Below are positions 15,303-46,576 of a DNA stretch of 50,069 bases, piece by piece; within the stretch, counting starts at the first letter, position 1, and the number at the start of each line of letters is the position of its first letter. The notes beneath the pieces were generated by a model. That model did not search any database and was not told the origin of the DNA. It saw only the letters and a program-made list of their open reading frames with translations. The position numbers were made by a program, and so were the translations under genes. This stretch comes from Phycisphaerales bacterium (GTDB lineage Bacteria; Planctomycetota; Phycisphaerae; Phycisphaerales; UBA1924). The stretch covers positions 1 through 50,069 of the forward strand of contig RECZ01000096.1 of the NCBI GenBank assembly GCA_007693765.1, given 5' to 3'.

Positions 15303-15833
15303 TCATCCGCGGTTTCGTTGCGCGACGCGCGCCCTTTGCGGCGCTTTACGATTGGGCTTTGAGCTTCCATTGGGCTTGGACGCGGCGAGCCCGCCGCTGA
15401 TGGTCAGTTCGCTGGTGGCTGCGCGGCGGGGGCGCTTGGGCGGATCGGCGGTCACCTCGGCGATGGTCGTTTCCTTGAACGCGCGTTCCACGAGCGCGAG
15501 CGCATCGTCGAGGCGCTTGTGGAGCGGGCAGAGGTGCAGCCGGTGCGATTTGAGCTTGAGCGGGCACTCGTGGATCCGCATGGGCGGATCGATGACCGCG
15601 ATCACGTCGTAGAGCGAGAGTTCTTCGGGGTCGTGCAGCAGGGTGTGCCCGCCGTTGGGGCCCCGCTGCGCGCTGACGATGCCGGCGCGGCCCAGTTCCT
15701 TGAGCACCTTCGAGAGGTACCCGATGGGGACGAGCGTCGCTTCGGCGATCTCCTGTGTGGTCCGCGGCTCGCCCGCGTTGAAGGTGAGATCGACGACCGC
15801 ACGGAGCGCGTACTCGGCTGTTTGTGAAATCAA
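15303..15833 (-). CDS. Rrf2-family transcriptional regulator with altered Fe-S ligand motif
   Basis: The 176-residue regulator begins with the Rrf2 winged-helix: MISQTAEYALRAVV, the recognition helix around IGYLSKVLKELGRAG and the wing QRGPNGGH. The cluster-binding loop of IscR-like members has Cys at +0, +6 and +12 and His at +15. Here the same spacing reads C90, S96, C102, H105, so the middle cysteine is Ser. Adjacent H97 could substitute. The C-terminal 50 residues are basic, proline-rich and unusual for the family. It is next to cysE on one side and the nap operon on the other. NsrR-like (NO), IscR-like and CymR-like roles all fit the neighbourhood; the target is not determined by sequence. 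Confidence 0.88.
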   Translation of the reverse strand: MISQTAEYALRAVVDLTFNAGEPRTTQEIAEATLVPIGYLSKVLKELGRAGIVSAQRGPNGGHTLLHDPEELSLYDVIAVIDPPMRIHECPLKLKSHRLHLCPLHKRLDDALALVERAFKETTIAEVTADPPKRPRRAATSELTISGGLAASKPNGSSKPNRKAPQRARVAQRNRG

Positions 15834-15914: not shown

Positions 15915-16226
15915 TCAGAGGTCGTGACGGATGCGCACCAGGCGCACGCCGCCGGGGGCGGGCATGAGGGTGTCCCACCAGCACGCGCCCTCGTGCCGGT
16001 ACCGGATCTGCACCCCGCGGACGGCGCGGTCGCGGAGCAATTGTTCGGCGTCTGCGAGCGTCGCGGCGGGGGCGTGCTCGGCGCGCCCGGGGGACGCCTT
16101 GACGACGATCTCGTCGATCGCGGTCGCCGCACGGAGGTCGCGGAAGAGATCGGCGAGGGTCTCGTCGTCGAGGAGCGCGTCGCTCATGGGCGGCGGTTCG
16201 AAGTTGTCGTCAGCGGGGTTCTGCAT
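15915..16226 (-). CDS. Small hypothetical protein at the end of the nap operon
   Basis: The 103-residue frame starts inside the end of napF (17-bp overlap); an ATG at 16187 would give a 90-residue product starting MSDALLDDETLAD. It has an acidic helical N-terminus, a middle segment with IDEIVVKASPG and a C-terminal beta-rich part containing VQIRYRHEGACWWDTL and GGVRLVRIRHDL. No signal peptide or metal motif is visible. It appears to be the last gene of the napDABF transcript, so a role in nitrate reductase maturation or control is inferred. I do not recognise the family. Confidence 0.65.
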   Translation of the reverse strand: MQNPADDNFEPPPMSDALLDDETLADLFRDLRAATAIDEIVVKASPGRAEHAPAATLADAEQLLRDRAVRGVQIRYRHEGACWWDTLMPAPGGVRLVRIRHDL

Positions 16227-16908
16227 GCGGCGGGTCCGAGCGGTCGTTCTCGTTGTCGGGGTGTGATGCGGGCGGCGCGGGGCGATGGGCGAGGGGCATG
16301 AGCAGGATCGCGTTCTCCGGGGCGGGGCAGACGTGCTGGCACACGCCGCAGCCGGTGCAGGTCGCTTCGACGATACGGGGGCGGCCGTTGACGATCTCGA
16401 TCGCGCCTTCGACGGGGCAGTGCTCGGAGCAGACCGTGCAGAAGCTGTTCTGGTGGGCGAGGCAGGTGACGGGGCTGATGCGGGCGACGCCCATCACGAC
16501 CGGCAGGTCTTTGCGGAGGACGCCCGGTTCGCACGCGGTCACGCAGGGCGTGTCCTCGCACATGCGGCAGGGCTGGCGCACGGGGTCGATCATCGGTGTG
16601 CCCGCCGCGACGCGGAACCGGTCCGGCGCATTGATGATGGCGTCGTGGGGGCAGGCCTCGATGCACGCGGCGCATCGGGTGCAGCCGTCGAGGAACGTGG
16701 TTTCTTCGATGGCGCCGGGGGGGCGCAGCACGGGGAAGGGTTTGTTGTAGCGGTCCGATCGCGCCGGCGGGGCCTTTGGTGTGAGGCCCGCGGCGTCGGA
16801 TGCGGCGTTGATCCGGTCCGCGATGGAGTCGCCAACGCGCCCCACGACGTCGCCCAGCACGCGGGCGCGCAGGAAGCTGCGGCGGCTCATGCGCGGGTCG
16901 TCGGTCAT
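16210..16908 (-). CDS. napF: Ferredoxin-type nitrate reductase accessory protein NapF/NapG
   Basis: The 232-residue protein carries four iron-sulfur motifs with Cys at 76/79/82/86, 114/117/122/126, 149/157/160/164 and 184/187/190/194. FLDGCTRCAACIEAC and the CLAHQ segment resemble NapF, while the second motif CRMCEDTPCVTAC resembles NapG. The N-terminus reads SRRSFLR, like a twin-arginine motif, but no hydrophobic core follows. That favours a cytoplasmic NapF-like protein, which in E. coli binds NapA before export. It overlaps the napB stop as ATGA. NapH, the usual membrane partner of NapG, is absent from the window, which also favours the NapF role. Confidence 0.85.
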   Translation of the reverse strand: MTDDPRMSRRSFLRARVLGDVVGRVGDSIADRINAASDAAGLTPKAPPARSDRYNKPFPVLRPPGAIEETTFLDGCTRCAACIEACPHDAIINAPDRFRVAAGTPMIDPVRQPCRMCEDTPCVTACEPGVLRKDLPVVMGVARISPVTCLAHQNSFCTVCSEHCPVEGAIEIVNGRPRIVEATCTGCGVCQHVCPAPENAILLMPLAHRPAPPASHPDNENDRSDPPHAEPR

Positions 16909-17693
16909 CGGGGCACGACTCGGAGCGGCGGGAGCAGCGGGGGCGCCGTGTCGAAAACGCCCTGATCGAGCACCGCGGAGGGGGCGTGGCACTGGAGGCA
17001 GTTGACCTGCCACGGGTGCGATGTGCGGATCGGGTCCGGGCCACTGGGGCCGTGGCAGGCCATGCAGTTGTCGCGCATGAAGGTTGGGTGGGGGATCGTG
17101 GGCGGCGCGCCGGGCCAGGCGCGCTCGCCCTGCGCGGGCGCATCGAGTGGGCGGAAGATGTTCGCCGCCACCGCGATCTGGGGCATGTGCACGGACCACT
17201 GTTCGACGTGGCATTGCGTGCAGTTGTGCATGAAGTCGTGGGACATCGCCGGCGCGCGGAGCTCGCCGATGCGCAGCCCCGTTGTGTGGCAGGCGACGCA
17301 CGAACTCGTCGTCAGCTGATCGATGGGGTGGGGGACGACGGGCGGGGCGCCGTCGTAGGCCCTTCGCGAAGCGCGCTGCGCCTGGAGCGAGCGTCGGGAT
17401 TCTTCGTCCCAGTGCACGGGCTCTTCGGGGTCGTACGCGGGCTGTTCGAGGTCGGCGAGCGAGCTGCGCCACGCGCTGTTGGGGCCGTGGGTGCGTCGGT
17501 CGAAGTCCCGGTAGGCGACGGCGGCGACGGTGTTGGGCGCGGCGGGCGTGTCCGGCGGTGCGAACTCGGGCGGTTCATAGGAGGGGACGCCCTGGCGAAC
17601 GCCGACGACGAAGCCGATGAACGCGCAGGCGATCACCGCCACAAGAAAGACCTGCGTCGCGCGTCGGGTCACGTCTGGAGGGCGTTGGGTCAC
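16905..17693 (-). CDS. napB: Periplasmic nitrate reductase cytochrome subunit NapB, tandem-duplicated four-haem form
   Basis: The 262-residue protein has an N-terminal membrane segment (residues 12-31) and four CxxCH haem sites at Cys132, 158, 210 and 232. Normal NapB has two. The sites fall into two like units. Unit 1 reads RRAYDGAPPVVPHP, haem, SH (H152), haem; unit 2 reads PGAPPTIPHP, haem, SH (H226), haem. Each unit has the PH and SH histidines expected as distal ligands of a bis-His NapB haem. NapB passes electrons to NapA. It starts at GTG only 3 bp after napA stops. The segment before residue 115 is unrelated to haem binding. Duplication rather than fusion with another cytochrome is inferred from the repeated layout. 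Confidence 0.85.
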   Translation of the reverse strand: MTQRPPDVTRRATQVFLVAVIACAFIGFVVGVRQGVPSYEPPEFAPPDTPAAPNTVAAVAYRDFDRRTHGPNSAWRSSLADLEQPAYDPEEPVHWDEESRRSLQAQRASRRAYDGAPPVVPHPIDQLTTSSCVACHTTGLRIGELRAPAMSHDFMHNCTQCHVEQWSVHMPQIAVAANIFRPLDAPAQGERAWPGAPPTIPHPTFMRDNCMACHGPSGPDPIRTSHPWQVNCLQCHAPSAVLDQGVFDTAPPLLPPLRVVPR

Positions 17694-17696
17694 GGG

Positions 17697-20144
17697 TCAC
17701 CTCGTTCCGGCGGCGCCGTTGGACGCTGGTGCGCGGCTCACGCGCACCGCGCACTTCTTGTAGTCGGGCTGGCGGGAGAAGGGGTCGTGCGCGTCGAGCG
17801 TGACCTCGTTGATGAGCTTGGTCTCGTCGAAGAAGGGCACGAAGACCTGCCCGCGCGGGGGCTTGCCGCGGCCGTTGATCCAGACGGGGAGGTCGATGGC
17901 GCCGCGCCGGGACTCGACGCGGACCATGTCGCCGCGGTGGATGCCGAGTTCGCGGGCGTCCTCGGGGTGCATCTCGACGTAGGCGCGGGGGACGGCGCGG
18001 CGGAGCTCGGGCACGCGCCCCGTCATGGTGCCGGAGTGCCAGTGCTCGATGACGCGACCGGTGTTGAGCCAGAAGGGGTACTCGTCGTCGGGGATCTCGG
18101 GGGGCGGCTCGTAGGGACGGAACCAGACGAGCGCGCGGTCGTCCTTGGTGACGGAGTGGTAGAACTGGAACTCGCTGCCAGGCTTGACGTAGGGGTCGTC
18201 GAACTCGGAGAAGCGGAAGCGCGTCTCGCGCCAGGAGCCGTCGGGCTGCTCGACGACGGGCCAGCGCAGGCCCCGGGCCTTGACGTACACCTCGTAGGGC
18301 GCGAGGTCTTTCTGCTTGATGCGGGAGAAGGGGCGGTACTCCTCGAAGAGGCGCTCGTCGACGTTGACGTCGTAGTAGTGGTCCCATTCCCAGATGGGGA
18401 CTTCGCGTCCGTTCGCGTCGCGCGTCTCGAAGAGGAACTTGCCGTCCTTGTCGCGCATGCCGGGGTGGCCGAGTTCGAGCAGGCGGCGGGCGACGGCGAT
18501 GGTCTGCCAGCAGTCGTCGCGGGCCTGGCCCGGGGGGGAGACCATCCGGAACCAGTGCTGTGTGCGGCGTTCGGAGTTGCCGTACATGCCGTTCTTCTCG
18601 ACCCACATCGCGGAGGGGAGGATGAGGTCGGCGAGGCGCGTGGTCGCGGTGGGGTAGACGTCGGAGACGATGAGGAACTTGTCTTCGAGGTCCTTCTTGC
18701 GGTTGAAGAGCTTGTGGAGGTTGGGCAGCGTCTGGCCGGGGTTGGTGACCTGCACCCAGAGGGTGTCGATATCGCCGCCGTCTTCTTTTGGTGTGCAGAA
18801 GTGCTCGAAGAGCGCGACGGTGTGGTGCCCGGGCGTGGGCTTGATGCGACCTTCGGGCACGTTCCAGAGCGTCTCCGCCTTTCGCCGGTCGTTCTCGTTG
18901 GCGACGAGCATGCCCCCGGGGAGGAGGTGGCAGAGCGTGCCGACCTCGCGGACCGTGCCGCACGCGGAGGGCTGGCCGGTGAGGCTGGTGGGGGCGTCGC
19001 CGGGGCGCCCGAAGTGTCCGCTGAGCAGGTGGATCCCGTGGACGAGGCAGTTGATCGCGGTGCCTCGTGTGTGCTGGTTCATGCCCATGCACCAGAGGCT
19101 GGTGATGCGGATGTCGCGCCGTCCGAAGAGGTCGCCCAGCATGCGGATCTTGTCGGCGGGGACGCCGGAGATCTCTTCAACGCGCTCGGGGGTGTACTCC
19201 GCGACGGCCGCGGCGAATTCCTCGAAGGACATGGGCTTGCCGTACATGTTGTTGGGCGCGTCCGGGTCCATCTGGCGGAAGTTGCAGTGCTTCTCGACGA
19301 AGGCGCGGTCGTAGGTCCCGTTCTTGACGAGGAGGTGCGCGATCCCGTTGGCGATGGCGAGGTCGCTGTGGGGATTGAACTCGAGGTATTCCTGGCAGAG
19401 GTCCGTGGTGCGGGTGCGGCGGGTGCCGATGTCGATGAGCAGGACGTCCTCGCCCTTGGCGCGCCGGTCGACGACGCGCGAGAAGAGCACGGGGTGCATC
19501 TCGGCGGGGTTGTTGCCCCACATGATCAGGACGTCGCACTCGTCGAGGTCGTCGTAGCAGCCGGCGGGCTCGTCGACGCCGTACGTGGAGAGGAAGCCGG
19601 TCACCGCGGAGGACATGCAGAGGCGCGGGTTGCCGTCGATGTGGTTGTTGCCGATGCCCGCCTTCATGAGCTTGTTGGCGGCGAACCCTTCGCCGATGGT
19701 CCACTGGCCGCTGCCGTAGAAGCCGAAGCGCTCGGGGGCGGCGTGGATTTTTTTGGCGATGATGTCGACGGCCTCGTCCCATGAAATGGGGACGTACGAG
19801 TCGCCGCGTCGGAGCAGGGGGGTGGTGAGGCGGTCCTCGCCGTAGAGGATCTTGCCGACGTGGTAGCCCTTGACGCAGAGCAGGCCGCGGTTGACGTCCG
19901 CCTTGAGATCACCGGCGATGGCGACGACGCGGTCGTCCTTGACGCCGACGCGCACGTGGCAGCCGGTGCCGCAGAAGCGGCAGACGCCCTTGTTCCAGGC
20001 CACGCCGTTGTCGGGGCTTTCGTCCCCTTCGAGGACGGGGAGCGAGAGGGCGTTGGTGCGCACGCCCCCGCTGGCGACGGCGGTCGCCGCGGCCATGGCC
20101 GAGGCGTGCAGAAACGCGCGGCGATCGACTCCGACGTCGTTCAT
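17697..20144 (-). CDS. napA: Periplasmic nitrate reductase catalytic subunit
   Basis: The 815-residue molybdoenzyme reduces nitrate to nitrite outside the inner membrane. Its N-terminus has a Tat signal ([17 protein letters not shown]). The [4Fe-4S] ligands are Cys55, 58, 62 and 90, and Lys92 of CVKGYHVG is the electron-relay lysine typical of NapA. The Mo ligand is Cys176 in [13 protein letters not shown], which separates it from NarG (Asp). Bis-MGD binding segments and the C-terminal domain with [10 protein letters not shown] and [10 protein letters not shown] are present. The ATG has an AAGGAG ribosome-binding site six bases upstream and overlaps the napD stop. The full mob/moa pathway nearby supplies its cofactor. 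Confidence 0.97.
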
Positions 20145-20407
20145 GACGTTCTCCTTGCGGCGCCCGCGGGCGCATCCTCGCTGGCGTCTGCGCAGACGAG
20201 ATCGACGAAGAGCACGCCCGGCAGCGTGTGGAGCCATTCCCACACGGCGCGGTCGTCCTCGCTGCAGGGCGTATCGACGACGATCGGGAGGCGGTGGCCC
20301 TGCGGCTCGCCGATCGAGACGCCCTCGCGCCGGTCCAGCGCCGTGAGCGCCGCGGCGCGATCAGCGTCGTTGCGACTGAGAGTCAGGACCAGTCCGCTGA
20401 CGGGCAT
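20141..20407 (-). CDS. napD: Nap assembly chaperone NapD
   Basis: The 88-residue protein opens [13 protein letters not shown] and contains [15 protein letters not shown] then [18 protein letters not shown], the ferredoxin-like betaalphabeta pattern of NapD. NapD binds the Tat signal of NapA and delays export until the cofactor is loaded. It is the first gene of the minus-strand nap operon, preceded by an AAAGGA ribosome-binding site, and its stop overlaps the napA start as ATGA. Size and position are diagnostic even though NapD sequences are divergent. Confidence 0.88.
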
Positions 20408-20458
20408 CCGCGTCGTCCTTTCGTCGGGACGCCCCGCGACGAGCGGGGTTGCCCGAAC

Positions 20459-20495
20459 GGAATACAGGATATCGAGGTATGGTATACTCCGGCAA
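20459..20495. promoter_or_regulatory. Overlapping divergent nap promoters with an imperfect palindrome
   Basis: On the plus strand an extended -10 element, TGGTATACT, lies at 20480-20488. On the minus strand TTGCCG (20490-20495) and TATCCT (20466-20471) are spaced 18 bp. The two promoters overlap across 20459-20490, where 10 of 16 base pairs are palindromic (GGA.TA.A with T.TA.TCC). One regulator bound here could control napDABF and the cytochrome-NrfD operon together. This is visual inference. Confidence 0.45.
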
Positions 20496-20564
20496 GTCCG
20501 GCGGCGCCACGATCGTGCACCCGTGTGTGCAGCGCGACGCCGCAACGAACGCGAGGAAGGGCCC

Positions 20565-21227
20565 ATGCCGCGCGTCAAACCCTGGATCTTCCTTTCGTTG
20601 GCTGTCGCCCTCGGCGCGGGCGCCGCGATCGGGCGCGTGCACTTGTCCAACAGCGTCGGAACGCCCGTGGCAGACGCGGGGCGCGCCGAATCCGCCGCGG
20701 CGGGCGCCGTCGCGCCGGCGGGCGGCGCGTACGGCGTGTTCGTGAGCCTGCCCGACGGCCCTCCGCGGGTCCACACGGGCGAGCACGACGCGATGGGCCG
20801 GCCCGTCACCGTCTCCTGCGTGAGCTGCCACACGAGCATGGAGCCGAACCTCGCGCGACGGACCGCCGCCGATCCGCCGATGCAGTTCCACCAGGGGTTG
20901 ACGTACGCGCACGGCCAGCTCTCGTGCGTGTCGTGCCACAACCCGCACGACTACAACACGCTCCGCCTCGCCGACGGCGCCGCCGTGCCGTACCCCGAGG
21001 TCATGACCATGTGCTCGCAGTGCCACGCGCCGCAGGCGCGTGACTGGACGTACGGCGCGCACGGGGGAATGACCGGCTACTGGGACCTTTCCCGCGGCGC
21101 CCGGCACCGCAAGTCGTGCATCGACTGCCACGACCCGCACGCCCCCGCGTTCCCCTCGATGACGCCGACGTTCAAGCCCGTCGATCGGTTCCTTACGCCG
21201 CACCGGACCGGAGGCGCCCATGAGTGA
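20565..21227 (+). CDS. Membrane-anchored tetraheme c-type cytochrome
   Basis: The 220-residue protein has an N-terminal hydrophobic anchor or signal (residues 6-22) and four CxxCH sites at Cys85, 121, 150 and 185. Several extra His residues (FHQ at 109, AHG at 116 and 166, PH at 128 and 192) could be distal ligands. It resembles cytochrome c3/NrfB-type electron carriers more than NapC, because it lacks the NapC/NirT N-terminal signature and haem spacing. It is the first gene of a plus-strand operon with an Fe-S protein and an NrfD protein, and faces napD across a shared promoter. The likely role is shuttling electrons from the quinol dehydrogenase to NapB. A GAGGAAGG ribosome-binding site supports the start. 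Confidence 0.85.
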   Translation: MPRVKPWIFLSLAVALGAGAAIGRVHLSNSVGTPVADAGRAESAAAGAVAPAGGAYGVFVSLPDGPPRVHTGEHDAMGRPVTVSCVSCHTSMEPNLARRTAADPPMQFHQGLTYAHGQLSCVSCHNPHDYNTLRLADGAAVPYPEVMTMCSQCHAPQARDWTYGAHGGMTGYWDLSRGARHRKSCIDCHDPHAPAFPSMTPTFKPVDRFLTPHRTGGAHE

Positions 21228-22152
21228 CGAACGGACCATCTCGCTGCCGGTGCTGGGGCAGATCGATCGGCGCACGGCCGTGAAGGGGATCGGCGCGACG
21301 CTGGGCCTCGGCGCGTTCGGCGTGGCGATCTCGCCCCTGGCGCGGATGCGCGAGCAGCTCAGCGCCGAGGAGCTGATGCAGAAGCACTACAAGGAGCTCA
21401 CGCCCGAGGACAAGGAGGCCGTGTTCGCGCGCCTCGAACGCGAGGCGAAGGACCAGTACGGCGCCGACGTGAGCATCCACGACCCGCAGCCCATCCCCGG
21501 GGTGCGCTTCGGGTACGCGATCAACCTCAGCGTGTGCAACGGCAACGGCAAGTGCGTCGAGGCCTGCCACAAAGAGAACAACCACGACCGCGACACGAAC
21601 CAGTCCTACATCCGCGTCTTCGAGATGCCCAAGGGAACGACGGACTTCGAGCACGGCAACACCACGTACACGCACGACGTGCCGCGCGAGGGGCACTACT
21701 ACCTGCCGGTGCAGTGCTTCCAGTGCGAGAACCCGCCCTGCGTGGACGTCTGCCCGGTCGAGGCGACGTGGCAGGAGGACGACGGCATCGTGGTGGTGGA
21801 TTACAACTGGTGCATCGGGTGCCGCTACTGCCAGGCGGCGTGCCCCTATCACGCGCGCCGGTTCAACTGGAAGAAGCCGACGATCCCCGCGGAGGAGGTC
21901 AACCCCGATCAGGGCTACCTCTCCAACCGGGTGCGCCCGCAGGGGGTGGTGGAGAAGTGCCACTTCTGCCTGCACCGCACGCGGGAGGGGCGGATGCCGG
22001 CGTGCCTCGAGGCGTGCCCGACCGGGGCGCGCATCTTCGGCAACATGCTCGACCCCGATTCCGAGATCCGCTGGGTGCTCAAGAACAAGCGCGTGTTCGT
22101 CCTGAAGGAGGAGCTCGGCGCCCGGCCGACCCTGTTCTACTTCTTCGATTGA
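21220..22152 (+). CDS. NrfC/PsrB-type four-cluster iron-sulfur protein with one Cys replaced by Asn
   Basis: The 310-residue protein has a twin-arginine-like signal (DRRTAVKGIGATLGLGAFG), so it should work on the outer face of the inner membrane. Four cluster motifs are seen: C106/N109/C112/C116, C166/C169/C174/C178, C198/C201/C204/C208 and C247/C250/C262/C266. In the first, CNGNGKCVEAC, Asn109 takes the place of the second Cys. The family passes electrons between an NrfD quinol site and a periplasmic redox protein. It overlaps the tetraheme gene by 8 bp and precedes the NrfD gene. NrfC, PsrB, TtrB and DsrO are the closest functional types; context favours a Nap-linked NrfC role. Confidence 0.92.
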   Translation: MSDERTISLPVLGQIDRRTAVKGIGATLGLGAFGVAISPLARMREQLSAEELMQKHYKELTPEDKEAVFARLEREAKDQYGADVSIHDPQPIPGVRFGYAINLSVCNGNGKCVEACHKENNHDRDTNQSYIRVFEMPKGTTDFEHGNTTYTHDVPREGHYYLPVQCFQCENPPCVDVCPVEATWQEDDGIVVVDYNWCIGCRYCQAACPYHARRFNWKKPTIPAEEVNPDQGYLSNRVRPQGVVEKCHFCLHRTREGRMPACLEACPTGARIFGNMLDPDSEIRWVLKNKRVFVLKEELGARPTLFYFFD

Positions 22153-22207
22153 CGCCTCACGAGCGCGTCGCGGACCCTCCGCGACGGCGCCAGGAGCCGA
22201 CCGAATC

Positions 22208-23491
22208 ATGAGTCATCACCAACCCAGCGCCGCGCCCGGCGCGCCCGCGGACAAGGGCAGCCACTGGGCGAACTACCCGCGGTTTCTGTGGCGTTCGCTC
22301 GTCATGGCGACCGACGGCGGTCTCCCGTTCTACGCGTGGATGACCTTCCTGACCGCGGTGGCGCTCGTCGGCGCCAACGCGTGGGCGTTGCAGGTCGTGG
22401 ACGGGATGATCCACACCAACATGACGGACCACGTCAGTTGGGGGATCTACATCGCCAACTTCACGTTCATGGTGGGCGTCGCGGCGGGCGGGGTGATGAT
22501 GGTCATCCCGGGCTACCTGTACCGCGACAAGGACATGCACGACGTGGTGATCCTGGGCGAGCTGCTCGCGATCGCGGCGATCGTGATGTGCCTGCTCTTC
22601 GTGACGGTGGACCTCGGGCGCCCCGACCGCTTCTGGCACCTGATCCCGGGCCTGGGGCGTTTCAACTTCCCGATCTCCATGCTGACGTGGGACGTGATCG
22701 TCCTCAACGGCTACCTGCTGCTGAACCTGCACATCTGCGGGTATCTGCTCTACATCCGGTACCTCGGGCGCACGCCCAACCCGCGCTGGTACGTGCCGTT
22801 CGTGATGATCTCGATCGTGTGGGCGATCTCGATCCACACGGTGACGGCGTTCCTGTACAGCGGCCTGGGCGGGCGTCCCTTCTGGAACACGGCGCTGCTG
22901 GCGCCGCGGTTTTTGGCGTCGGCGTTCGTGGCGGGGCCGGCGTTCCTGATCGTCACGATGTTCGTGCTGCGTCGGCTGGCGCGGGTGGACATCCCCGATC
23001 GTCCGATCCAGTTGCTGGTGCAGATCGTCCGCGTGACGGTGCTGATCAACCTGCTGATGCTCGGTTCGGAGCTCTTCACGGAGTTCTACACCGGCGGGTC
23101 GCACACCACGCACGCGACGTATCTCTTCTTCGGCCTGCACGGGCACAACGCGCTCGTGCCGTGGATGTGGACGGCGGTCGCGCTCAATGTCGTCTCCGCG
23201 GCGCTGTTCCTGCTGCCCGCGGCGATGCGCAACATGTGGCTGCTCTGCGCGGCGTGCGTGCTGGCCTTTGTGGGCATCTGGATCGAGAAGGGCATGGGGC
23301 TGATCATCCCCGGGTTCGTCCCCAGCACGCTGCACGAGCTTGTCGAGTATCTGCCCAGCAGCATCGAGTGGCGCGTCAGCGCCGGCATCTGGGCGTTCGG
23401 GCTCATGATCTACACGGTGTCGCTCAAGATCGCCATCCCCATCATGCGCGGCGACGTCGTCCTCGGGCGCGACGGGTCACGAAAGAAGTGA
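22208..23491 (+). CDS. NrfD/PsrC-family membrane quinol dehydrogenase subunit
   Basis: The 427-residue polytopic protein shows about ten hydrophobic segments, as in the longer NrfD (HmcC/DsrP-like) branch. Recognisable parts are VSWGIYIANFTFMVGVAAGG, the VDLGRPDRFWHL loop after the third or fourth span, and MLTWDVIVLNGYL. These proteins oxidise or reduce membrane quinones and pair with an external four-cluster Fe-S protein, which is the preceding gene. There is no NapC or NapH in the window, so this subunit is the best candidate for quinol oxidation feeding nitrate reductase. The C-terminus is basic (GRDGSRKK). Proton-pumping ability cannot be judged from sequence alone. Confidence 0.93.
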   Translation: MSHHQPSAAPGAPADKGSHWANYPRFLWRSLVMATDGGLPFYAWMTFLTAVALVGANAWALQVVDGMIHTNMTDHVSWGIYIANFTFMVGVAAGGVMMVIPGYLYRDKDMHDVVILGELLAIAAIVMCLLFVTVDLGRPDRFWHLIPGLGRFNFPISMLTWDVIVLNGYLLLNLHICGYLLYIRYLGRTPNPRWYVPFVMISIVWAISIHTVTAFLYSGLGGRPFWNTALLAPRFLASAFVAGPAFLIVTMFVLRRLARVDIPDRPIQLLVQIVRVTVLINLLMLGSELFTEFYTGGSHTTHATYLFFGLHGHNALVPWMWTAVALNVVSAALFLLPAAMRNMWLLCAACVLAFVGIWIEKGMGLIIPGFVPSTLHELVEYLPSSIEWRVSAGIWAFGLMIYTVSLKIAIPIMRGDVVLGRDGSRKK

Positions 23492-23499
23492 GGGCTCTC

Positions 23500-24996
23500 A
23501 TGCTCGCTGTAACGTCATGCGTTCTGAACCGTTCGGCGTTGCGCGGGTTCTGGTGCGCGATCGTGGGGGCGTCGGCGACGCTCGCTCCGGGCGCGCTCGC
23601 GCAGACGCCGGAAGTCGCGGGGGCCCAGACGCCCGAGGCCGTCGAGGACGCCGTCGAGCGGCCCGCGCCCCCGGCCCCGGCCCCCCGGCCAGCGCTGCAG
23701 ATGCTCCGGTTCTCGGAGGACTGGTCGGTCCTGCGCGGGCAGGAACTGCGAGGGCTCGACCGCCTGAAGTTCATCCCGCTCGACGAGGAGGAGCGTGTCT
23801 TTCTCTCGGTCGGCGGGCAGCAGCGTCTGCGCTTCGAGCGGTTTGAGAACTTCGGCTTCAACCCCGCCAACGACGACACGTACCTGCTGAGCCGCACGCG
23901 CCTGCACATGGATCTGCAGGCCGGGGAGCACCTGCGGGCCTTCGTCGAGGTGATCAGCGCGAACACGACCGGGCGCGATCTCCCCGGCGGCAAGCGCCCG
24001 CTGGATGTGGACACGTTCGACCTGCTCAACGCGTTCGGGGACGTCCGGTTCAGTCTTGACGACGATGCGCGCCTGACGCTGCGGCTGGGGCGTCACGAGC
24101 TGCTCTTCGGTCGTCAGCGGCTCGTCAGCCCGCTGGACTGGGTCAACTCCCGGCGCACGTTCGAGGGCGTGAGCGCGATCCTCGACTGGGCCGACTGGCG
24201 CATCAGCGGGTTCTGGACGCGCCCGGTCACGGTGCGGAAGTACGACTGGAACAAGGCGGAGTCGGGCGGGCAGTTCTTCGGCGTCTACGCGGCGACCAAG
24301 CCGGGGCCGGTGGGGTTCGATCTGTACTGGCTCGGCGTCGATCGCGACCGCACGACCATCGCCTCCTCGACCGGCTCGGAGCACCGGCACACGCTCGGCG
24401 CGCGGTCGCACGGCCTCATCGCGGAGACGGGGCTCGATTTCGACGTCGAGGCGGCGCTCCAGTTCGGGCGGCACGACGGGCGCGACGTGTTCGCATCGAT
24501 GTTCAGCGCGGAGGTCGGGTATCGCTTCACCGGGGCGCCGTGGCGGCCGCGGCTCTCGGCGGGGTTCGACTACGCCTCCGGCGACCGCAACGCGGGCAAC
24601 GGCGAGGCGGGCACGTTCAACCAGTTGTTCCCGCTCGGGCACGCGTTCTTCGGCGCGGTGGACCTGGTGGGGCGGCAGAACATCGTCGCGGCGCGCGTGG
24701 GGCTCTCGGTCTCGCCGCACGAGACGCTGACGCTCAGCGCCGACGGCCACTTTTTCTGGCGAGCGGAGACCGGCGATGCGCTCTACAACGCCGGCGGCGG
24801 CGTCGTCCGCGGCCCTGCGCCGGGGGCGTCGCGCGAAGTGGGGCAGGAGCTCGAGCTCGCCGCCCGCTACAACCCGGGGCGGGGCTGGTCGCTCATGGCG
24901 GGGTACAGCCGCTTCTTCGCCGGGAAGTTCATCGAGGACACCGGCCCGAGCGAGGACGTCGATTTCCTGTTCACGAGCGTGCAGTTCACGTTCTGA
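23500..24996 (+). CDS. Outer-membrane beta-barrel porin (alginate_export family)
   Basis: The 498-residue protein has a signal peptide ending near ALAQTP, an Ala/Pro linker, and then a barrel with repeated amphipathic strands and a C-terminal Phe (SVQFTF). Segments such as RTRLHMDLQAGEHLRAFVE, LRLGRHELLFGRQRLVSP and DWVNSRRTFEGV match the alginate_export (AlgE-like) porin family. It begins 8 bp after the NrfD gene and clearly belongs to that operon. The family includes anion-selective channels, so nitrate uptake or nitrite release across the outer membrane is a reasonable inference. The sequence gives no direct evidence of selectivity. Confidence 0.85.
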   Translation: MLAVTSCVLNRSALRGFWCAIVGASATLAPGALAQTPEVAGAQTPEAVEDAVERPAPPAPAPRPALQMLRFSEDWSVLRGQELRGLDRLKFIPLDEEERVFLSVGGQQRLRFERFENFGFNPANDDTYLLSRTRLHMDLQAGEHLRAFVEVISANTTGRDLPGGKRPLDVDTFDLLNAFGDVRFSLDDDARLTLRLGRHELLFGRQRLVSPLDWVNSRRTFEGVSAILDWADWRISGFWTRPVTVRKYDWNKAESGGQFFGVYAATKPGPVGFDLYWLGVDRDRTTIASSTGSEHRHTLGARSHGLIAETGLDFDVEAALQFGRHDGRDVFASMFSAEVGYRFTGAPWRPRLSAGFDYASGDRNAGNGEAGTFNQLFPLGHAFFGAVDLVGRQNIVAARVGLSVSPHETLTLSADGHFFWRAETGDALYNAGGGVVRGPAPGASREVGQELELAARYNPGRGWSLMAGYSRFFAGKFIEDTGPSEDVDFLFTSVQFTF

Positions 24997-25045: not shown

Positions 25046-25399
25046 ATGAGCCACGACAGCGGAGCCGAAGGGAAAAACACGAAGCGACTCCCGGCGACGT
25101 ACAAGGCCTTCGTCGCGAAGCACCCCGAGCTCGGGCGCGCCCACGAATCGGTGGCCGCAGCGGTCGAGGTCGCGGGCCCGCTCGACGCCAAAACGCTCGC
25201 GTTCATCAAGATCGGCCTGTGTGTCGGGGCCGGGCTCGAGTCCGCCCTGCGCAGCCATGTGCGGCGGGCCATGCAGCACGGCGCGACGGAGCAGGAGATC
25301 GAGCAGGCGATCCTGCTGGGGATGAACACCGTGGGCTTCCCGCGCACCGTGGCGGCCTGGAGCTGGGCACAAGAGCAGTTCAACCGCGGAACAGAGTGA
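25046..25399 (+). CDS. Carboxymuconolactone decarboxylase (AhpD-like) family protein
   Basis: The 117-residue all-helical protein contains LDAKTLAFIKIGLCVGAG followed by SALRSHVRRAMQHGATEQEIEQAILLG, the CMD/AhpD core with its conserved His. AhpD-type reductases use a CxxC pair just before that His. Here only one Cys (in GLCVGAG) is seen, so thiol-disulfide peroxidase activity is doubtful. It lies 49 bp after the porin and its stop overlaps the moaA start, so it is co-expressed with nitrate reductase and cofactor genes. The function is unknown; nitrosative-stress handling is only a guess from context. Confidence 0.8.
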   Translation: MSHDSGAEGKNTKRLPATYKAFVAKHPELGRAHESVAAAVEVAGPLDAKTLAFIKIGLCVGAGLESALRSHVRRAMQHGATEQEIEQAILLGMNTVGFPRTVAAWSWAQEQFNRGTE

Positions 25400-26562
25400 T
25401 GATGAAAGCGTCACGGATGAACACACCGACGCCGCCGGGGCGGAACGCGTCGCGGGCCGACACCGCGACCAACGCCGGGCGTCCCGCGCCTGCGCGGGTC
25501 TCGCTGCCGCAGTATGCGCCGGCGGCGGTGCGCGAGGCGCCGGCGCCCTCCCCGGCGCACATCCGCGGGCAGCGTCGCATGATCGATTCGCACGGTCGTG
25601 TGATCCGCGATCTCCGCATCAGCCTCACGGACCGGTGCAACTTCCGTTGCGTCTACTGCATGGAGCCGGATGTCCGTTTCGCGCCGAGCGATGCGCTGCT
25701 GACCGGCGCCGAGGTTGTTCGCCTGGTGCGCGTCGCCGCGTCGCTGGGCGTGCGCAAGGTCCGCCTGACCGGCGGCGAGCCGACGCTGCGCCCCGACTTG
25801 CTCGAGATCATCCGCGGCGTCCGGGCCGAGACCACGGTCGAGCTGGCCATGATCACCAACGCGTCCCGGCTATCGCGCGAGGACGCCCGCGCCTGGCGCG
25901 AGGCCGGGCTCGACCGCGTCACGATCAGCATCGACTCGCTCCGCGACGACCGCTTTGCGCGGATCACGCGGTCCACGACGACGCCCGACGACGTGCTGCG
26001 GGGCATCGAGGCGTGCATCGCGGAGAGGTTGACGCCCGTCAAGGTCAACGCGGTGCTCATCCGCGGGCTCAACGACGACGAGGCCGCCGATCTGGCGGGG
26101 CTGGCGCGGCGATACGGCGTCGAGATGCGGTTCATCGAGTACATGCCGCTCGATTCCGGGCACGCGTGGGACGCCTCGAAGTGGGTCTCCGCCGCCGAGA
26201 CGCGCGACGCGATCGAGCGCCGCCACTCGCTTGTGCGTCGCGTCGACGATGCGCGATCCAGCACGGCGCAGAACTACGACTTTGCCGACGGCGCGCCCGG
26301 GCGCATCGGCTTCATCGCCCCGGTGAGCAGCCCGTTCTGCGGGGCCTGCAACCGTTTGCGGATCACCGCCGACGGGAAGGTCCGCCCGTGCCTGTTCAGC
26401 GCCACCGAGTGGGACATCCGCACACCGCTGCGGGACGGCGCGGACGACGCGCGCATCGCCGAGTTGCTCATCGACGCGACGTGGACGAAGCAGGCCGGCC
26501 ACGGCATCGCCTCGCCGGGGTTCGAGCAGCCATTGAGGCCGATGTCGGCCATCGGCGGCTGA
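25399..26562 (+). CDS. moaA: GTP 3',8-cyclase (molybdenum cofactor biosynthesis protein A)
   Basis: The 387-residue radical SAM enzyme starts molybdopterin synthesis from GTP. The SAM cluster is C80, C84, C87 in DRCNFRCVYCMEP. The substrate-side cluster is in FCGACNRLRIT and the later KVRPCLFS. The C-terminus ends IGG, as needed for radical catalysis. An N-terminal extension of about 60 residues, rich in Ala and Pro, comes before the conserved HGRVIRDLRISLT. The true start may be one of the later Met codons (25402, 25417). It overlaps the preceding stop and belongs to the nap-linked cofactor cluster. Confidence 0.96.
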   Translation: MMKASRMNTPTPPGRNASRADTATNAGRPAPARVSLPQYAPAAVREAPAPSPAHIRGQRRMIDSHGRVIRDLRISLTDRCNFRCVYCMEPDVRFAPSDALLTGAEVVRLVRVAASLGVRKVRLTGGEPTLRPDLLEIIRGVRAETTVELAMITNASRLSREDARAWREAGLDRVTISIDSLRDDRFARITRSTTTPDDVLRGIEACIAERLTPVKVNAVLIRGLNDDEAADLAGLARRYGVEMRFIEYMPLDSGHAWDASKWVSAAETRDAIERRHSLVRRVDDARSSTAQNYDFADGAPGRIGFIAPVSSPFCGACNRLRITADGKVRPCLFSATEWDIRTPLRDGADDARIAELLIDATWTKQAGHGIASPGFEQPLRPMSAIGG

Positions 26563-27331
26563 TGCTCGCGAGCGCACCATTCATGCCCGACGGACTCGTG
26601 CTCGTCATCGCGCTGCTCTTCATGCTGGTCGGCGCGTTGTACGCCTCTGTCGGGCACGCCGGGGCGTCGGGCTACCTCGCTTTGATGGCGATCATGGGCG
26701 TCGATGCGCTCGTGATGCGTCCGACGGCGCTCACGCTCAACGTTCTCGTCGGCACGATCGCCTTCGTGCAGTTTGCGCGCGCGGGCCATTTCCGGTGGCG
26801 GCTGTTCTGGCCGTTCGCGGTCGCGTCGGTCCCCATGGCGTATGTCGGCGGGGCGGCGCACGTGCCGGCGGGCGCGCTCAAGGTCGCGATCGGCGTCGTG
26901 CTGCTGCTGACCGCGTGCCGCATGGTGTGGACGAACCTGAGGCCCAGACCCGAGACCGAGGCGCCGCTGCGAGCGATGCCGCTGCCCGCGGCCCTCGTGT
27001 GCGCGGCGTGATCGGGCTGGTCGCGGGGCTGACCGGCACGGGCGGCGGCATCTTCCTCAGCCCGTTGATCCTGCTTTTTCGATGGGCGGACCCGAAGCAG
27101 ACGGCCGCGGCGGCGGCGCTGTTCGTCCTGATCAACTCGGTCTCTGGCCTGAGCGGCATGGCGGCATCGGGCTGGACGCCGCACCCCTCGCTCGCGCTGC
27201 TCGCGGTCGCGGCGGGGATCGGCGGGCTGGCGGGGTCGTACATCGGCAGCCGGCGGGCCACGCCGCGCGGCATGTGCCTCGCCCTCGCCGCGGTGCTGCT
27301 GCTCGCGGGCGGCAAACTCGTGCTGCAATGA
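26562..27331 (+). pseudogene. TauE/SafE-family membrane permease interrupted by a frameshift
   Basis: Two frames together make one protein. The first (26562-27011) has LVGALYASVGHAGASGYLAL and LNVLVGTIAFVQF, the N-terminal TauE/SafE repeat. It stops at TGA 27009-27011, just after LPAALVC. The second repeat continues in another frame from about 27002: GVIGLVAGLTGTGGGIFLSP, then several spans ending GGKLVLQ at 27331. One missing base near 27000-27006, in the run GCGCGGCG, explains the break. The family exports small anions, including sulfite and sulfonates. The first ATG overlaps the moaA stop. It may be a real mutation, a sequencing error or recoding; the downstream coding is otherwise undamaged. 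Confidence 0.8.
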
Positions 27332-27345
27332 CCGCTCGGCGCGGC

Positions 27346-27789
27346 TCACGCCCAGACGGGGGACTTCCAGATCGGCACGTCCCGCTTCATGGCGTCGATG
27401 AACGAGGCGGTCGCGGCGAGCGTCTCGGCGCGGTGGGCGGCGCTGATCTCGAGCACGAACGACACCTCGCCGACGCCCACGCGCCCGCGGCTATGCCACA
27501 CGACGATCGAGGCCAGCCCGTGCCGCTCGGCGACGGCGCGGGCGAGCGACTCCAGCCCGCGCTGCGCCATCGGGTCGTACGTCTGATACTCGAGCCCGAG
27601 CAGCGCGCGCGGCTCGCCGCGCTGCTCGGGGTGGGGTTCGTCGCGACGTACGATCCCCTCGAAACGCAGGGTCGCCCCGACGGCGCCGTCGCTCCGGGTC
27701 GATCGGGGGTCGAGGCCGGACGCGGCGAGCGCACGGGCTTGCGATTCCGGTGTGAGCGCCCCTTCCACGATGATCGCGACGACGATCAT
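27346..27789 (-). CDS. moaE: Molybdopterin synthase catalytic subunit
   Basis: The 147-residue large subunit inserts sulfur into precursor Z. Signature segments are GATLRFEGIVRR, LGLEYQTYDPMA and VWHSRGRVGVGEVSF, plus the active-site Lys in FIDAMKRDVPIWKSPVW. It is transcribed opposite to the rest of the cofactor cluster with moaD: the moaD stop overlaps its ATG as ATGA. Its start reads MIVVAIIVEG. Its 3' end faces the 3' end of the TauE/SafE gene only 14 bp away, with no clear terminator between. Confidence 0.95.
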   Translation of the reverse strand: MIVVAIIVEGALTPESQARALAASGLDPRSTRSDGAVGATLRFEGIVRRDEPHPEQRGEPRALLGLEYQTYDPMAQRGLESLARAVAERHGLASIVVWHSRGRVGVGEVSFVLEISAAHRAETLAATASFIDAMKRDVPIWKSPVWA

Positions 27790-28031
27790 CCGCCACCCAG
27801 CAGGGAGATCAGGGCGAGTTCGTCCCCGGGTTGCACGGGTGTGTCGGGCGACGCGAGCGACTGGTTCACGGCGAGCCGCGCGCCATCGAGCGCGAACGCC
27901 AGCCCGGGGTGCTGGGCGGCGATCGCCGTGAGGACGTCCCGAACGGTGGCGGGCTCGCGCACGGAAACGGGCGCCCGGTCGGTGTTCGCCGCCGCGGCGG
28001 CGGGGCCGAAGATCAGCACGTCCACCGTCAT
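27786..28031 (-). CDS. moaD: Molybdopterin synthase sulfur carrier subunit
   Basis: The 81-residue ubiquitin-like protein ends in a double glycine (ISLLGGG), the tail that is thiocarboxylated to carry sulfur to MoaE. Other family parts are VDVLIFGP at the start and VQPGDELALI before the tail. It has an extra Gly before the usual terminal pair. It overlaps moaE by 4 bp. The start ATG is 34 bp from the moeA start on the other strand, so both promoters must be very compact or transcription starts within the coding sequence. Confidence 0.93.
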   Translation of the reverse strand: MTVDVLIFGPAAAAANTDRAPVSVREPATVRDVLTAIAAQHPGLAFALDGARLAVNQSLASPDTPVQPGDELALISLLGGG

Positions 28032-28065
28032 GCCGGGAGTGTATCGTGCGTACGGAGAAAACGGC

Positions 28066-29373
28066 ATGGGTTTCCGTGGTCAGCCATTCGCGTTTGATTC
28101 CCCCGCCGCGGCGGTTGCGGGGATGGTCGCGCGTCTGCGCATCGACGGCACGGCCCGCGGCGCCGAGCGGCGTCCGCTCGGAGAGGTCCGGGGACGGGTC
28201 CTCGCGGAGGCGATCCTCGCGGACCGCGACAGCCCGGCGTTCGACTACGCGGCCATGGACGGCTACGCGGTGCGCACGGCGGATCTGCATCGCGCTGCGC
28301 GGAGCGGGGGCTCGATCACGCTCCGCGTTTTCGGGGAGGCCCGCGTCGGGGCGGAGCCGCCGGGATTGCCCGATGCGGACGGCGCCCCGGCGGCGCTGCG
28401 CATCGCGACCGGTGCGCCCGTGCCGCGCGGCGCCGACGCCGTGGTTCGACGCGAAGACGTCGATGAGCACGCGTCCGCCGGTTCACCCGGCGGCGTCGCG
28501 TCGATCACGATCACCGGATCCGCCGCGGCGGATGTGCGCGAGGGCGACAACATCCGGCGTCGCGGGGAGAACGCGCGGGCGGGCGAGGCGGTGCTCGACG
28601 CGGGCGCCGTGCTCTCCGCCGCGGCGATCGGCACGCTGGCTGCGGTCGGCTGCGCGGCGCCGCTCGTCGCGCCGCGGCTCCGCGTGGCGGTGGTCACCAC
28701 CGGGGACGAGCTTGTGCCGCCCGAGGAGACTCCCGCGGCGTTCGAGATCCGCAACAGCAACGCGCCGGCGGTGAGCGCCGTGCTCGGCGCGCACGCGTGG
28801 ATCGGTGTCGACCGGACCGTGCACGTGCCCGACGAGGGCGGGCGGCTCGTCGGGACGCTGCGCGAGGTTCTGGGGAGCGTCGACGCGGTTGTGATCACCG
28901 GGGGGGTGTCGATGGGCCACCGCGACCCGGTGCGCGGCGCGGTCGAAGCGGTGGGCGCGGACGTCGTCTTTCACGGCCTCCCCCAACGACCGGGCAAGCC
29001 CATGCTCGGCGCGGTTGTCGCGGGTCAGGACGGGCGACAGGTCCCGGTCTTCGGCCTGCCGGGCAACCCCGTCTCCGCGATGGTCACGTGCACGCGGATC
29101 GTGATCCCCGTGCTCGGCGCGATCGCCGGCGCGACGATCCCGGCGCCGGTGCGCATCCCGCTGGCGAACCCCGACCGCAGGCCGCTCGGCCTGTGGTGGC
29201 ATCGTCTGGTGCGCATCAACCACCGGGGCGATGCCGAGCTGCTCGACGCGCGTGGCTCGGGGGACATCATCGCCGCGGGTCGTTCGGACGGCTTCATCGA
29301 GGCGCCGCCGAACGCCTTTGCCGAGGATATTGCGCCGGGCGCGTTGTTCCCGTACTCCGCATGGCCCACCTGA
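28066..29373 (+). CDS. moeA: Molybdopterin molybdenumtransferase MoeA
   Basis: The 435-residue enzyme inserts molybdate into adenylated molybdopterin. Domain features in order are a helical N-terminus with SPAFDYAAMDGYAVR, the GDNIRRRGEN motif, the MogA-like core LRVAVVTTGDELVPP with ITGGVSMGHRD, and LPQRPGKPMLGAV with FGLPGNPVSAM. The C-terminal domain ends GALFPYSAWP. The ATG at 28066 has GGAGAAAA upstream. It starts the plus-strand run moeA-moaC-mog-mobA. The overall length is near normal for MoeA. Confidence 0.96.
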   Translation: MGFRGQPFAFDSPAAAVAGMVARLRIDGTARGAERRPLGEVRGRVLAEAILADRDSPAFDYAAMDGYAVRTADLHRAARSGGSITLRVFGEARVGAEPPGLPDADGAPAALRIATGAPVPRGADAVVRREDVDEHASAGSPGGVASITITGSAAADVREGDNIRRRGENARAGEAVLDAGAVLSAAAIGTLAAVGCAAPLVAPRLRVAVVTTGDELVPPEETPAAFEIRNSNAPAVSAVLGAHAWIGVDRTVHVPDEGGRLVGTLREVLGSVDAVVITGGVSMGHRDPVRGAVEAVGADVVFHGLPQRPGKPMLGAVVAGQDGRQVPVFGLPGNPVSAMVTCTRIVIPVLGAIAGATIPAPVRIPLANPDRRPLGLWWHRLVRINHRGDAELLDARGSGDIIAAGRSDGFIEAPPNAFAEDIAPGALFPYSAWPT

Positions 29374-29417
29374 ACGTCGCCGCGCGGCGAGCGGCGAAGA
29401 ATGCATCGAGCGAACCC

Positions 29418-29945
29418 ATGAACACGCACCGCAGCACCGACGACGCCGGACCGAACGCCCTCTCGCACGTGTCGCCCGAAGGCGACGCGCGCATGGTTGA
29501 TGTCGGCGAAAAGCCCGTCACCGAGCGATGGGCGACGGCGGAAGGGTTTGTCCGCGTCTCGGCGGCGCTCGAGGCGCGCATCCGGGAGAACGCCCTGGCC
29601 AAGGGCCCCGTGCTGGATGTGGCGCGCCTCGCGGGGATTCTCGCCGCCAAGCGCACCGACGAGCTCATCCCCTTGTGTCACACGCTCCCCCTCGACGCGG
29701 TGGACATCGGCATGGAGGTGCAGCCGGGGCGCGTGCGCGTGACCGCCACGGTGCGCACCCGGGCGCGCACCGGCGTCGAGATGGAGGCGCTGGCCGCGGT
29801 TTCGGTCGCGTGCCTCACCATCGTCGACATGGGCAAGGCGGTGGACAAATCGATGGTGATCGAGGGTGTGCGTGTGCTCGAGAAGCACGGCGGGCGCAGC
29901 GGGTCGTACGTGGCATCGCGGGATGCGCAGGGGCCCGGCGCATGA
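29418..29945 (+). CDS. moaC: Cyclic pyranopterin monophosphate synthase
   Basis: The 175-residue enzyme acts after MoaA. Typical motifs are ARMVDVGEKPVTER, LAAKRTDELIPLCHTLPL and the active-site stretch TGVEMEALAAVSVACL with TIVDMGKAVDKSM. The start is set at ATG 29418, which gives a 25-residue lead before the conserved domain; an ATG at 29361 overlaps the end of moeA and would add 19 residues. It overlaps mog as ATGA, showing coupling. Confidence 0.96.
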   Translation: MNTHRSTDDAGPNALSHVSPEGDARMVDVGEKPVTERWATAEGFVRVSAALEARIRENALAKGPVLDVARLAGILAAKRTDELIPLCHTLPLDAVDIGMEVQPGRVRVTATVRTRARTGVEMEALAAVSVACLTIVDMGKAVDKSMVIEGVRVLEKHGGRSGSYVASRDAQGPGA

Positions 29946-30517
29946 GCGAACGCGCCGGCCACGATGCGATCGAGCGCCCCATCCGCGCCGCTGTGCTGAC
30001 GGTCAGCGACCGTTGCTCCCGCGGGCTGGCCGAGGACACGTCCGGCCCCGCGCTGGCGACGATGCTGCGCACGCGGCTGCGCGCCGAGGTCGTCGCCACG
30101 CGGTGTCTGCCTGACGAAATCGATCAACTCGCGGCGTGCTTTGTCGAGTGGTCGCGCCCCGGGGCGGGGATCGACCTCGTGCTCAGCGCCGGCGGCACCG
30201 GCCTCGCCCCGCGCGACGTCACGCCCGAGGCGGCGCGGAGCGTCTTCGAGCGGGAGCACAGCGGCCTGATGGAGCTGGCCCGCCTCCGGTGCATGGCCGC
30301 GACGCCCCGCGCTTTTCTTTCCCGCGGCGTCGCGGGGACGATCGGTCGCACGCTGATCCTCACGCTCCCCGGCTCGCTGCGCGGCGCCACGGAGAACCTC
30401 GAAGCGCTGCTCGACATCCTGCCGCACGCCATCGAGACGCTTCGCGGCGAGGTGCAGGACGACGGCCGCCCCGATGCGCAGGCGACGAGCGGCAAGGTCG
30501 TGCGCCATGACGATTGA
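29942..30517 (+). CDS. mog: Molybdopterin adenylyltransferase (MoaB/Mog family)
   Basis: The 191-residue protein adenylates molybdopterin before MoeA acts. It has AVLTVSDRCSRGLAEDTSGP near the start, then LVLSAGGTGLAPRDVTPEA, the molybdopterin-binding signature, and LTLPGSLRGATENLEALLDILPHA. MoaB and Mog share these motifs, so the exact name is uncertain, but only one such protein is in this cluster and it must serve the adenylation step. It overlaps moaC by 4 bp and mobA by 11 bp. Confidence 0.93.
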   Translation: MSERAGHDAIERPIRAAVLTVSDRCSRGLAEDTSGPALATMLRTRLRAEVVATRCLPDEIDQLAACFVEWSRPGAGIDLVLSAGGTGLAPRDVTPEAARSVFEREHSGLMELARLRCMAATPRAFLSRGVAGTIGRTLILTLPGSLRGATENLEALLDILPHAIETLRGEVQDDGRPDAQATSGKVVRHDD

Positions 30518-46421: not shown

Positions 46422-46492
46422 TCGGACGTGAAATCTGCGTATTCTGGCCGATCAATGCTCGCGTTTTGCCCATTCCAAGCCATACTTCACCC

Positions 46493-46521
46493 TTGAGGCG
46501 CCCCCTCGCGCCCGATACTGT
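46493..46521 (+). promoter_or_regulatory. Candidate promoter of the deiminase gene
   Basis: TTGAGG at 46493-46498 and TACTGT at 46516-46521 are separated by 17 bp. The start would fall near 46528, about 50 nt before the deiminase ATG, with CCGGAGAGA as ribosome-binding site. Upstream the DNA is relatively AT-rich (46440-46490). Confidence 0.5.
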
Positions 46522-46576
46522 TCGTGTGCGCGTCCGCGCCCTCACCCCACGTATGCCCACGCAATCACCGGAGAGA

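Follow-up and report, generated by a model that had tools for sequence, protein, structure and literature searches.

A DsrP-type NrfD module linked to periplasmic nitrate reductase in Planctomycetota and other phyla: a probable quinol dehydrogenase for NapAB

Which electron donor serves a periplasmic nitrate reductase (Nap) that is encoded without its usual donors, NapC or NapGH? The question is raised by a stretch of 50,069 nucleotides from a Phycisphaerales bacterium of the phylum Planctomycetota (contig RECZ01000096.1 of assembly GCA_007693765.1; hereafter the window), in which napD, napA, napB and a ferredoxin gene are read on the minus strand, and genes for a tetrahaem cytochrome, an iron-sulfur (FeS) protein and an NrfD-family membrane subunit (hereafter the trio), followed by a porin gene, on the plus strand, the two units diverging from a gap of 157 bases. 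A first-pass annotation of the sequence had described this layout, which is confirmed here. From the gene content, the cofactor motifs, the lack of the usual donors in searches of the organism's own genome and the conserved linkage, all of which are observed, we propose that the trio is a quinol dehydrogenase feeding NapAB in place of NapC or NapGH, a reading to which we give a probability of about 0.8.

The window is one contig (C132) of a 2.9-Mb genome, assembled in 176 contigs and 96.3% complete, and the features in question are as follows.

15303..15833, minus strand: Rrf2-family regulator adjoining the cluster (PF02082, 97.5 bits)
15915..16226, minus strand: uncharacterised nap-linked protein of 103 amino acids (aa)
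16210..16908, minus strand: NapF/NapG-like ferredoxin (NapG model 97.5 bits, NapF model 56, both under cut-off)
16905..17693, minus strand: napB, with four CxxCH motifs, an internal duplication and a hydrophobic N-terminal stretch (PF03892, 40.5 bits)
17697..20144, minus strand: napA, catalytic subunit, with a Tat-type N-terminus and a presumed molybdenum ligand, Cys176
20141..20407, minus strand: napD, chaperone of NapA, divergent (PF03927, 19.8 bits, under the cut-off of 28)
20408..20564: intergenic region of 157 bases shared by both divergent units
20565..21227, plus strand: tetrahaem cytochrome c, with four CxxCH motifs and an N-terminal anchor or signal
21220..22152, plus strand: DsrO/QrcC-like FeS protein, with a twin-arginine motif and 15 Cys
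22208..23491, plus strand: NrfD-family membrane subunit of the DsrP group (PF03916, 135.5 bits), with ten transmembrane (TM)-like stretches
about 23500..24996, plus strand: outer-membrane porin of the Alginate_exp family (PF13372, 290 bits), of variable association

That the locus lacks NapC, NapH and NrfA had been noted at first reading, and profile searches of the whole genome agree. The family of NapC, NrfH and TorC (PF03264) gave nothing over cut-off and four matches below it, three of them in the tetrahaem cytochrome itself; the best NapH match reached 17 bits against a cut-off of 213, so that no NapC or NapGH over cut-off was found elsewhere in the genome. PF02335, the family searched for a separate NrfA, had a single protein over its cut-off, the tetrahaem cytochrome (26.4 bits against 24.1). 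Nor did the genome yield a copper-type nitrite reductase, a match to PF02665 (NarI and DsrM) at E≤0.1, or a match to PF01077 (siroheme reductases, including DsrAB) at E≤0.01, DsrK lying outside the search.

What kind of module, then, is the trio? As in NrfCD-type quinone redox modules, a multi-cluster FeS protein (Fer4_11) adjoins a 10-TM NrfD-family subunit (PF03916). DsrJ has three haem motifs and NrfB five. The first-pass annotation had called the module NrfBCD-like, a label that does not hold: the membrane subunit passes the DsrP model (NF045798, 435.4 bits against a cut-off of 350), which also fires on octahaem-linked and other NrfD relatives, and falls far below the NrfD model (TIGR03148, 22.3 against 347.6); the FeS protein is nearest to DsrO (NF045797, 196.7 bits, just under the cut-off of 200, where a nap-linked relative, L156, reaches 203), with lower scores for QrcC (158.7, cut-off 400) and NrfC (TIGR03149, 118.9, cut-off 377.6); and the cytochrome has four haem motifs against the five of NrfB. 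For DsrP, ten TM segments have been predicted, and a table lists 20 residues of the quinone site and ion path of D. vulgaris DsrP1 (PMC8076601). Mapped through the DsrP of locus L132, whose letters fit that table at the same numbers or, for two residues, after a shift by one, 18 of the 20 are kept in the window's protein (R152 and K162 are not), and 16 do not vary among the 16 sequences aligned, of which the window's is one. The FeS protein had been described as a four-cluster protein, and four clusters are indeed expected, but with 15 Cys one of them would have three Cys ligands; this three-ligand cluster varies between relatives.

The cytochrome, rightly annotated as tetrahaem, carries four CxxCH motifs, as do all 89 untruncated relatives, and four further His are invariant across 57 aligned sequences, consistent with four bis-His electron-transfer haems. 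It gave no match to the DsrJ model; a fold search of its predicted structure (mean predicted local distance difference test, pLDDT, 81) returned no match in the PDB at E≤0.001, and a sequence search of the PDB returned three weak ones. Since no separate NrfA, copper-type or siroheme nitrite reductase was found (NirS was not among the searches), nitrite would be left without a sink among the enzymes looked for, and together with the PF02335 match this might suggest that the trio reduces nitrite itself, in a step following NapAB; an NrfAH-like nitrite reductase is what Suarez et al. (2023) propose for a related but larger NrfD cluster that adjoins Nar-type genes (PMC10732223). We consider this highly improbable, as the cytochrome has only four haem motifs and no CxxCK, and every one of these is CxxCH while four invariant His remain over, so that no haem is obviously open; for the two Nap-carrying metagenome-assembled genomes (MAGs), moreover, Suarez et al. 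state only a role in respiratory electron transfer.

The quinol dehydrogenase reading gains most from the distribution of the locus. Among 294 genomes of the phylum, all searched for both proteins, an NrfD match was found in 60 (E≤1e-20) and a NapA match in 57 (E≤1e-100); 25 of the 59 NapA matches, in 23 genomes, were close to that of the window (at least 63% identity). Beside 21 of these 25 genes an NrfD gene lies on the same contig and opposite strand, 1.9-2.6 kb away, while the other four (G236, G254, G164 and G179) stand at contig ends, with the FeS gene still beside napA in G236 and G254. None of the remaining 34 NapA matches has NrfD in the divergent arrangement. Ten of them have a same-strand NrfD gene within 10 kb, and in nine of these, G025 being the exception, an octahaem cytochrome accompanies the trio. 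At least five of the 34 have NapH within 1.5 kb (E≤1e-15, among the matches listed), of which two (G229 and G128) are also among the ten. Because the linkage recurs across so many genomes, the arrangement is more than chance, and the check suggested at the outset, whether the trio adjoins napA in other planctomycetes, bears the proposal out. The route had been called possibly uncommon, which is not supported: a close NapA occurs in 23 of 294 genomes, or 23 of the 57 that gave a NapA match at all, and the locus is found under the titles of other phyla too. Its cultured carriers include Adhaeretor mobilis and a Rhodopirellula. A relict in the window's own family (G172; L130, 5466-6841) retains NapA residues 714-813, NapB residues 4-38, most of the ferredoxin and NrfD residues 355-416, with the NapA and NrfD pieces at 82% identity and an apparent transposase remnant, judged by eye, between them, which indicates that the nap-trio system was once present there and has been lost.

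Beyond the phylum set, one scan of named genomes gave at least 577 relatives, of which the best 80 loci, not a random sample, were compared; they come from records titled Planctomycetota, Verrucomicrobiota, Myxococcota, Deltaproteobacteria, Sumerlaeia, Hydrogenedentota and others, the closest being L136, of a member of the Phycisphaerales (83-85% identity in NapA, FeS protein and NrfD). A napA gene (more than 55% identity) is present in 67 of the 80, in three arrangements: divergent (51), trio before nap (12) and nap before trio (4). The remaining 13 are cut short, their contigs ending no more than 3.4 kb upstream of NrfD; napD is visible at one of these ends (L172), and another of the 13 (L213, titled Hydrogenedentota) has an octahaem gene downstream. 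It could be supposed that some other donor feeds Nap, such as soluble cytochromes reduced by alternative complex III, and that the trio is unrelated to it. The own genome does hold a second NrfD-family gene, on contig C50, so poorly matched to the DsrP model (39.5 bits) that it is possibly ActC-like. The persistence of the linkage between the trio and napDAB over several phyla and three arrangements makes such a donor extremely improbable.

A FastTree phylogeny of 133 NrfD proteins places the window's protein in a clade of 100 tips, sister to ten octahaem-linked tips (support 0.87 and 0.94, with 0.99 at the joint node). The Dsr pair L132 and L133 forms a separate group with 18 more distant relatives, and L111, which also has a NapA close by, branches off beside the joint clade. 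Within the window's clade napA is in the locus for 85 of 100 tips and the contig of each of the other 15 ends within 3.4 kb upstream, through at least eight changes of arrangement by parsimony. Over 78 loci, distances correlate between NapA and NrfD (rho 0.46), NrfD and FeS protein (0.43) and NapA and FeS protein (0.33), where the permuted maxima are 0.19, 0.17 and 0.13, kinship being ignored in these figures.

The sister clade (L107, 8259-9707; L100-L110, L134 and L213) has a gene for an octahaem cytochrome beside it. In nine genomes of the phylum set the contig also encodes a NapA, and the whole represents a candidate nitrate-to-ammonium cluster; the octahaem protein was called hydroxylamine oxidoreductase-like from its eight CxxCH motifs and a weak match to hydrazine dehydrogenase (56.5 bits against a cut-off of 900). 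The first-pass annotation had named a link between the trio and a different terminal reductase as a finding that would count against its proposal; such a link is seen for this clade only and not for the window's. The trio may accordingly be a general quinol:periplasmic cytochrome oxidoreductase for several acceptors, its place beside nap reflecting co-regulation, as more distant relatives beside other multihaem proteins would also allow; in Methanoperedenaceae, clusters of NrfD-like, FeS and multihaem proteins are described as menaquinone:cytochrome c oxidoreductases (PMC7327174). Against this stand the near-constant company of napA in the window's clade through its rearrangements and the own genome, where no octahaem homologue was matched at E≤0.001 in a search that had no positive control, and we regard a general donor as unlikely.

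Returning to the trio as dedicated donor of NapAB, several points weigh against it. That genes are linked does not establish that electrons pass between their products, and the octahaem-linked clade indicates that the module can be re-partnered. The named loci are the best matches of their scan, and six of the 80 hold the same DNA as phylum loci. An assembly of 176 contigs at 96% completeness could have missed a gene. A PF03264 protein occurs somewhere in 16 of the 23 genomes with a close NapA (against 99 of the 271 others), on another contig than nap or, in G048, megabases away, so that another donor is possible there; it is absent from the other seven, including G077 and G152 at 99% completeness. 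Finally, in one genus, G279 carries, besides the trio, a NapH-NapG fusion directly after napB, and G271 part of such a fusion at a contig end. The G279 fusion (L096, 11686-13299) lies between napB and napF and joins NapH-like and NapG-like domains in a single reading frame of 537 aa. A strict exclusion of NapH by the trio, entertained when a first table listed no NapH beside a close NapA, was weakened by these two cases. The earlier claim that the NrfD module feeds NapAB is supported, with the qualification that replacement of NapC or NapGH is not absolute: given the tight and recurrent linkage to napDAB, and genome searches that turned up neither NapC nor NapH nor an NrfA of its own, the trio very probably feeds Nap.

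The receiving side of the proposed chain consists of NapB and NapA. NapA reaches the cut-off of model NF010055 (905.2 bits against 904) and stays below that of TIGR01706 (875.5 against 930.55), and the presumed molybdenum-ligand position is Cys in all 98 NapA sequences aligned there, several genomes being counted twice. A selenocysteine form, considered when a single TGA was reported inside several NapA matches, was dropped on account of those Cys residues; the TGA was taken as the terminal stop because the frame ends before the match end in L078, the sole locus compared. The identification of NapB stands (PF03892 cut-off 25.1), but the match spans one dihaem unit, and this unit occurs twice, so that the protein has four haem motifs; comparing its two halves with each other gives 39% identity (E 1e-12). 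Four motifs recur in 76 of 78 untruncated relatives, the exceptions being the relict L130 (one) and L185 (five). At NapB's place beside an octahaem-linked NapA, L104 (9792-10655) encodes a second kind of four-haem protein, with halves 59% identical and no NCBIfam match.

The accessory genes are less constant. A napD match is present in 54 of the 67 named nap loci, the ferredoxin in 33, the Rrf2 regulator in 24 and the porin in 12. The gene first read as napF does encode a ferredoxin of the NapF/NapG kind, though it scores better with NapG; it has no hydrophobic N-terminal stretch and is probably cytoplasmic. The range first given to the nap cluster begins at 15915, where a gene is indeed present, but its 103-aa product matches nothing in Pfam or NCBIfam and is no nap protein known to them. 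It is matched by tblastn in 46 of the 67 loci, with Y76, W83, D85 and R98 invariant across 52 sequences, and is predicted to adopt an alpha/beta fold (model pLDDT 87), for which a fold search gave no PDB match at E≤0.001.

How does this system compare with those already described? The trio resembles DsrJOP of DsrMKJOP in that its NrfD subunit passes the DsrP model, has ten TM-like stretches and is accompanied by an FeS protein nearest to DsrO, and in its gene order, which is that of L132, a real DsrKJOP locus (DsrK 741, DsrJ 136 against a cut-off of 100, DsrO 290 and DsrP 457 bits, all over cut-off); it differs in its cytochrome, whose haem motifs number four, not three, and which gave no DsrJ match, in being linked to NapA, and in that no DsrM-family or siroheme sulfite reductase gene was found in the own genome. 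An origin of the trio as a Dsr remnant was rejected on these grounds and on its tree position, apart from L132. With NrfBCD-NrfA it shares an FeS and NrfD module with a multihaem cytochrome directed toward a periplasmic N-oxide reductase, but it lies far under the NrfC and NrfD cut-offs, has four haem motifs and comes without a separate NrfA in the genome searches. QrcABCD and alternative complex III likewise combine a 10-TM NrfD-family protein, an FeS protein and a multihaem cytochrome (PMC6303296, PMC13059093); their partner, however, is a cofactor-less molybdenum-protein homologue, QrcB or fused ActB, whereas that of the window is NapA, a molybdenum-bis(pyranopterin guanine dinucleotide) (Mo-bisPGD) enzyme. 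A 2026 review distinguishes four types of Nap operon, napEDABC, napDAGHB, napCMADGH and napAGHBFLD, and its main text does not mention NrfD (PMC13223375). The window shares napD, napA, napB and a NapF/G-like gene with them and departs from them in having the trio as donor, with no NapC or NapH found in the own genome, and in the four haem motifs of NapB.

The nearest precedent comes from MAGs OFTM8 and OFTM33, in which Suarez et al. (2023) describe a cluster of the multihaem-4Fe4S-NrfD type, lying downstream of genes for Nap and Nxr, and suggest for it a role in respiratory electron transfer (PMC10732223). Loci L138 and L137, from records titled OFTM8 and OFTM33, show the window's arrangement and are very probably the cluster drawn there; the paper groups it with larger clusters resembling alternative complex III, including actD, and in its account of the cluster does not name a role as donor to Nap. 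In a literature search mostly without subscription papers and without preprints no publication identifying the trio as donor to Nap came to light, nor any on 'Tetraheme NapB' and variants of that term. Judged from the genes, the module is a known one, and its partnership is new and widespread.

In the mechanism that we propose, quinol oxidation, periplasmic location and the order and direction of transfer are assigned from what is known of the NrfCD and Nap families. The NrfD-family subunit (22208-23491) would oxidise quinol and pass electrons to the periplasmic FeS protein (21220-22152), which would hand them to the tetrahaem cytochrome (20565-21227); from there they would reach NapB, with its four haem motifs, and finally the [4Fe-4S] and molybdenum centres of NapA, which would reduce nitrate to nitrite. 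A bolder version, which we consider doubtful, is that the trio unites with NapAB in a single stable quinol:nitrate oxidoreductase with a proton-translocating DsrP-type subunit; periplasmic nitrate reduction itself would then conserve energy, unlike in the NapC route, and a 10-TM NrfD protein would be partnered with a genuine Mo-bisPGD enzyme.

Some further features of the window and its relatives may be recorded. A set of molybdenum cofactor genes adjoins nap (moaA, moaE, moeA and a second MoCF_biosynth gene, 25219-30517), which fits a molybdenum-enzyme island. Within it, a TauE/SafE permease gene (26562-27331) lies in two reading frames broken near 27000 (profile positions 2-131 and 132-237), apparently a frameshift or an assembly error, and farther on (46418-48259) is a gene for a protein of the Porphyromonas-type peptidyl-arginine deiminase family (PF04371, 107 bits). 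No motif common to most of 71 napD-cytochrome intergenic regions was found; the best word, ATTCAAGA/TCTTGAAT, occurs in 19 of them, against a maximum of 9 for any such word in three shuffles, and is a possible regulator site, and ATTCAAGA is not present in the window's own region (20408-20564).

If the proposed role is correct, it would add a type of Nap operon to the four of the 2026 review and would provide a likely partner for part of the DsrO- and DsrP-like proteins. A 2023 study of Dsr proteins calls the function of two clades of DsrO homologues, which may or may not be those of the trio, unclear (PMC10504309). Duarte et al. (2018) describe 10-TM NrfD members as accompanying proteins other than standard Mo-bisPGD enzymes, a pattern to which linkage with NapA would be an exception. 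In a lake metagenome study nrfC and nrfD served as markers of ammonification; since the trio passes or nearly passes the cut-offs for DsrP and DsrO, and such markers are in use, the potential for sulfur or ammonium metabolism may be overcounted. Conversely, nitrate respiration may be undercounted in phyla that carry the trio-nap locus. As the same partnership recurs across several bacterial phyla, it probably represents a way of respiring nitrate that has been overlooked.

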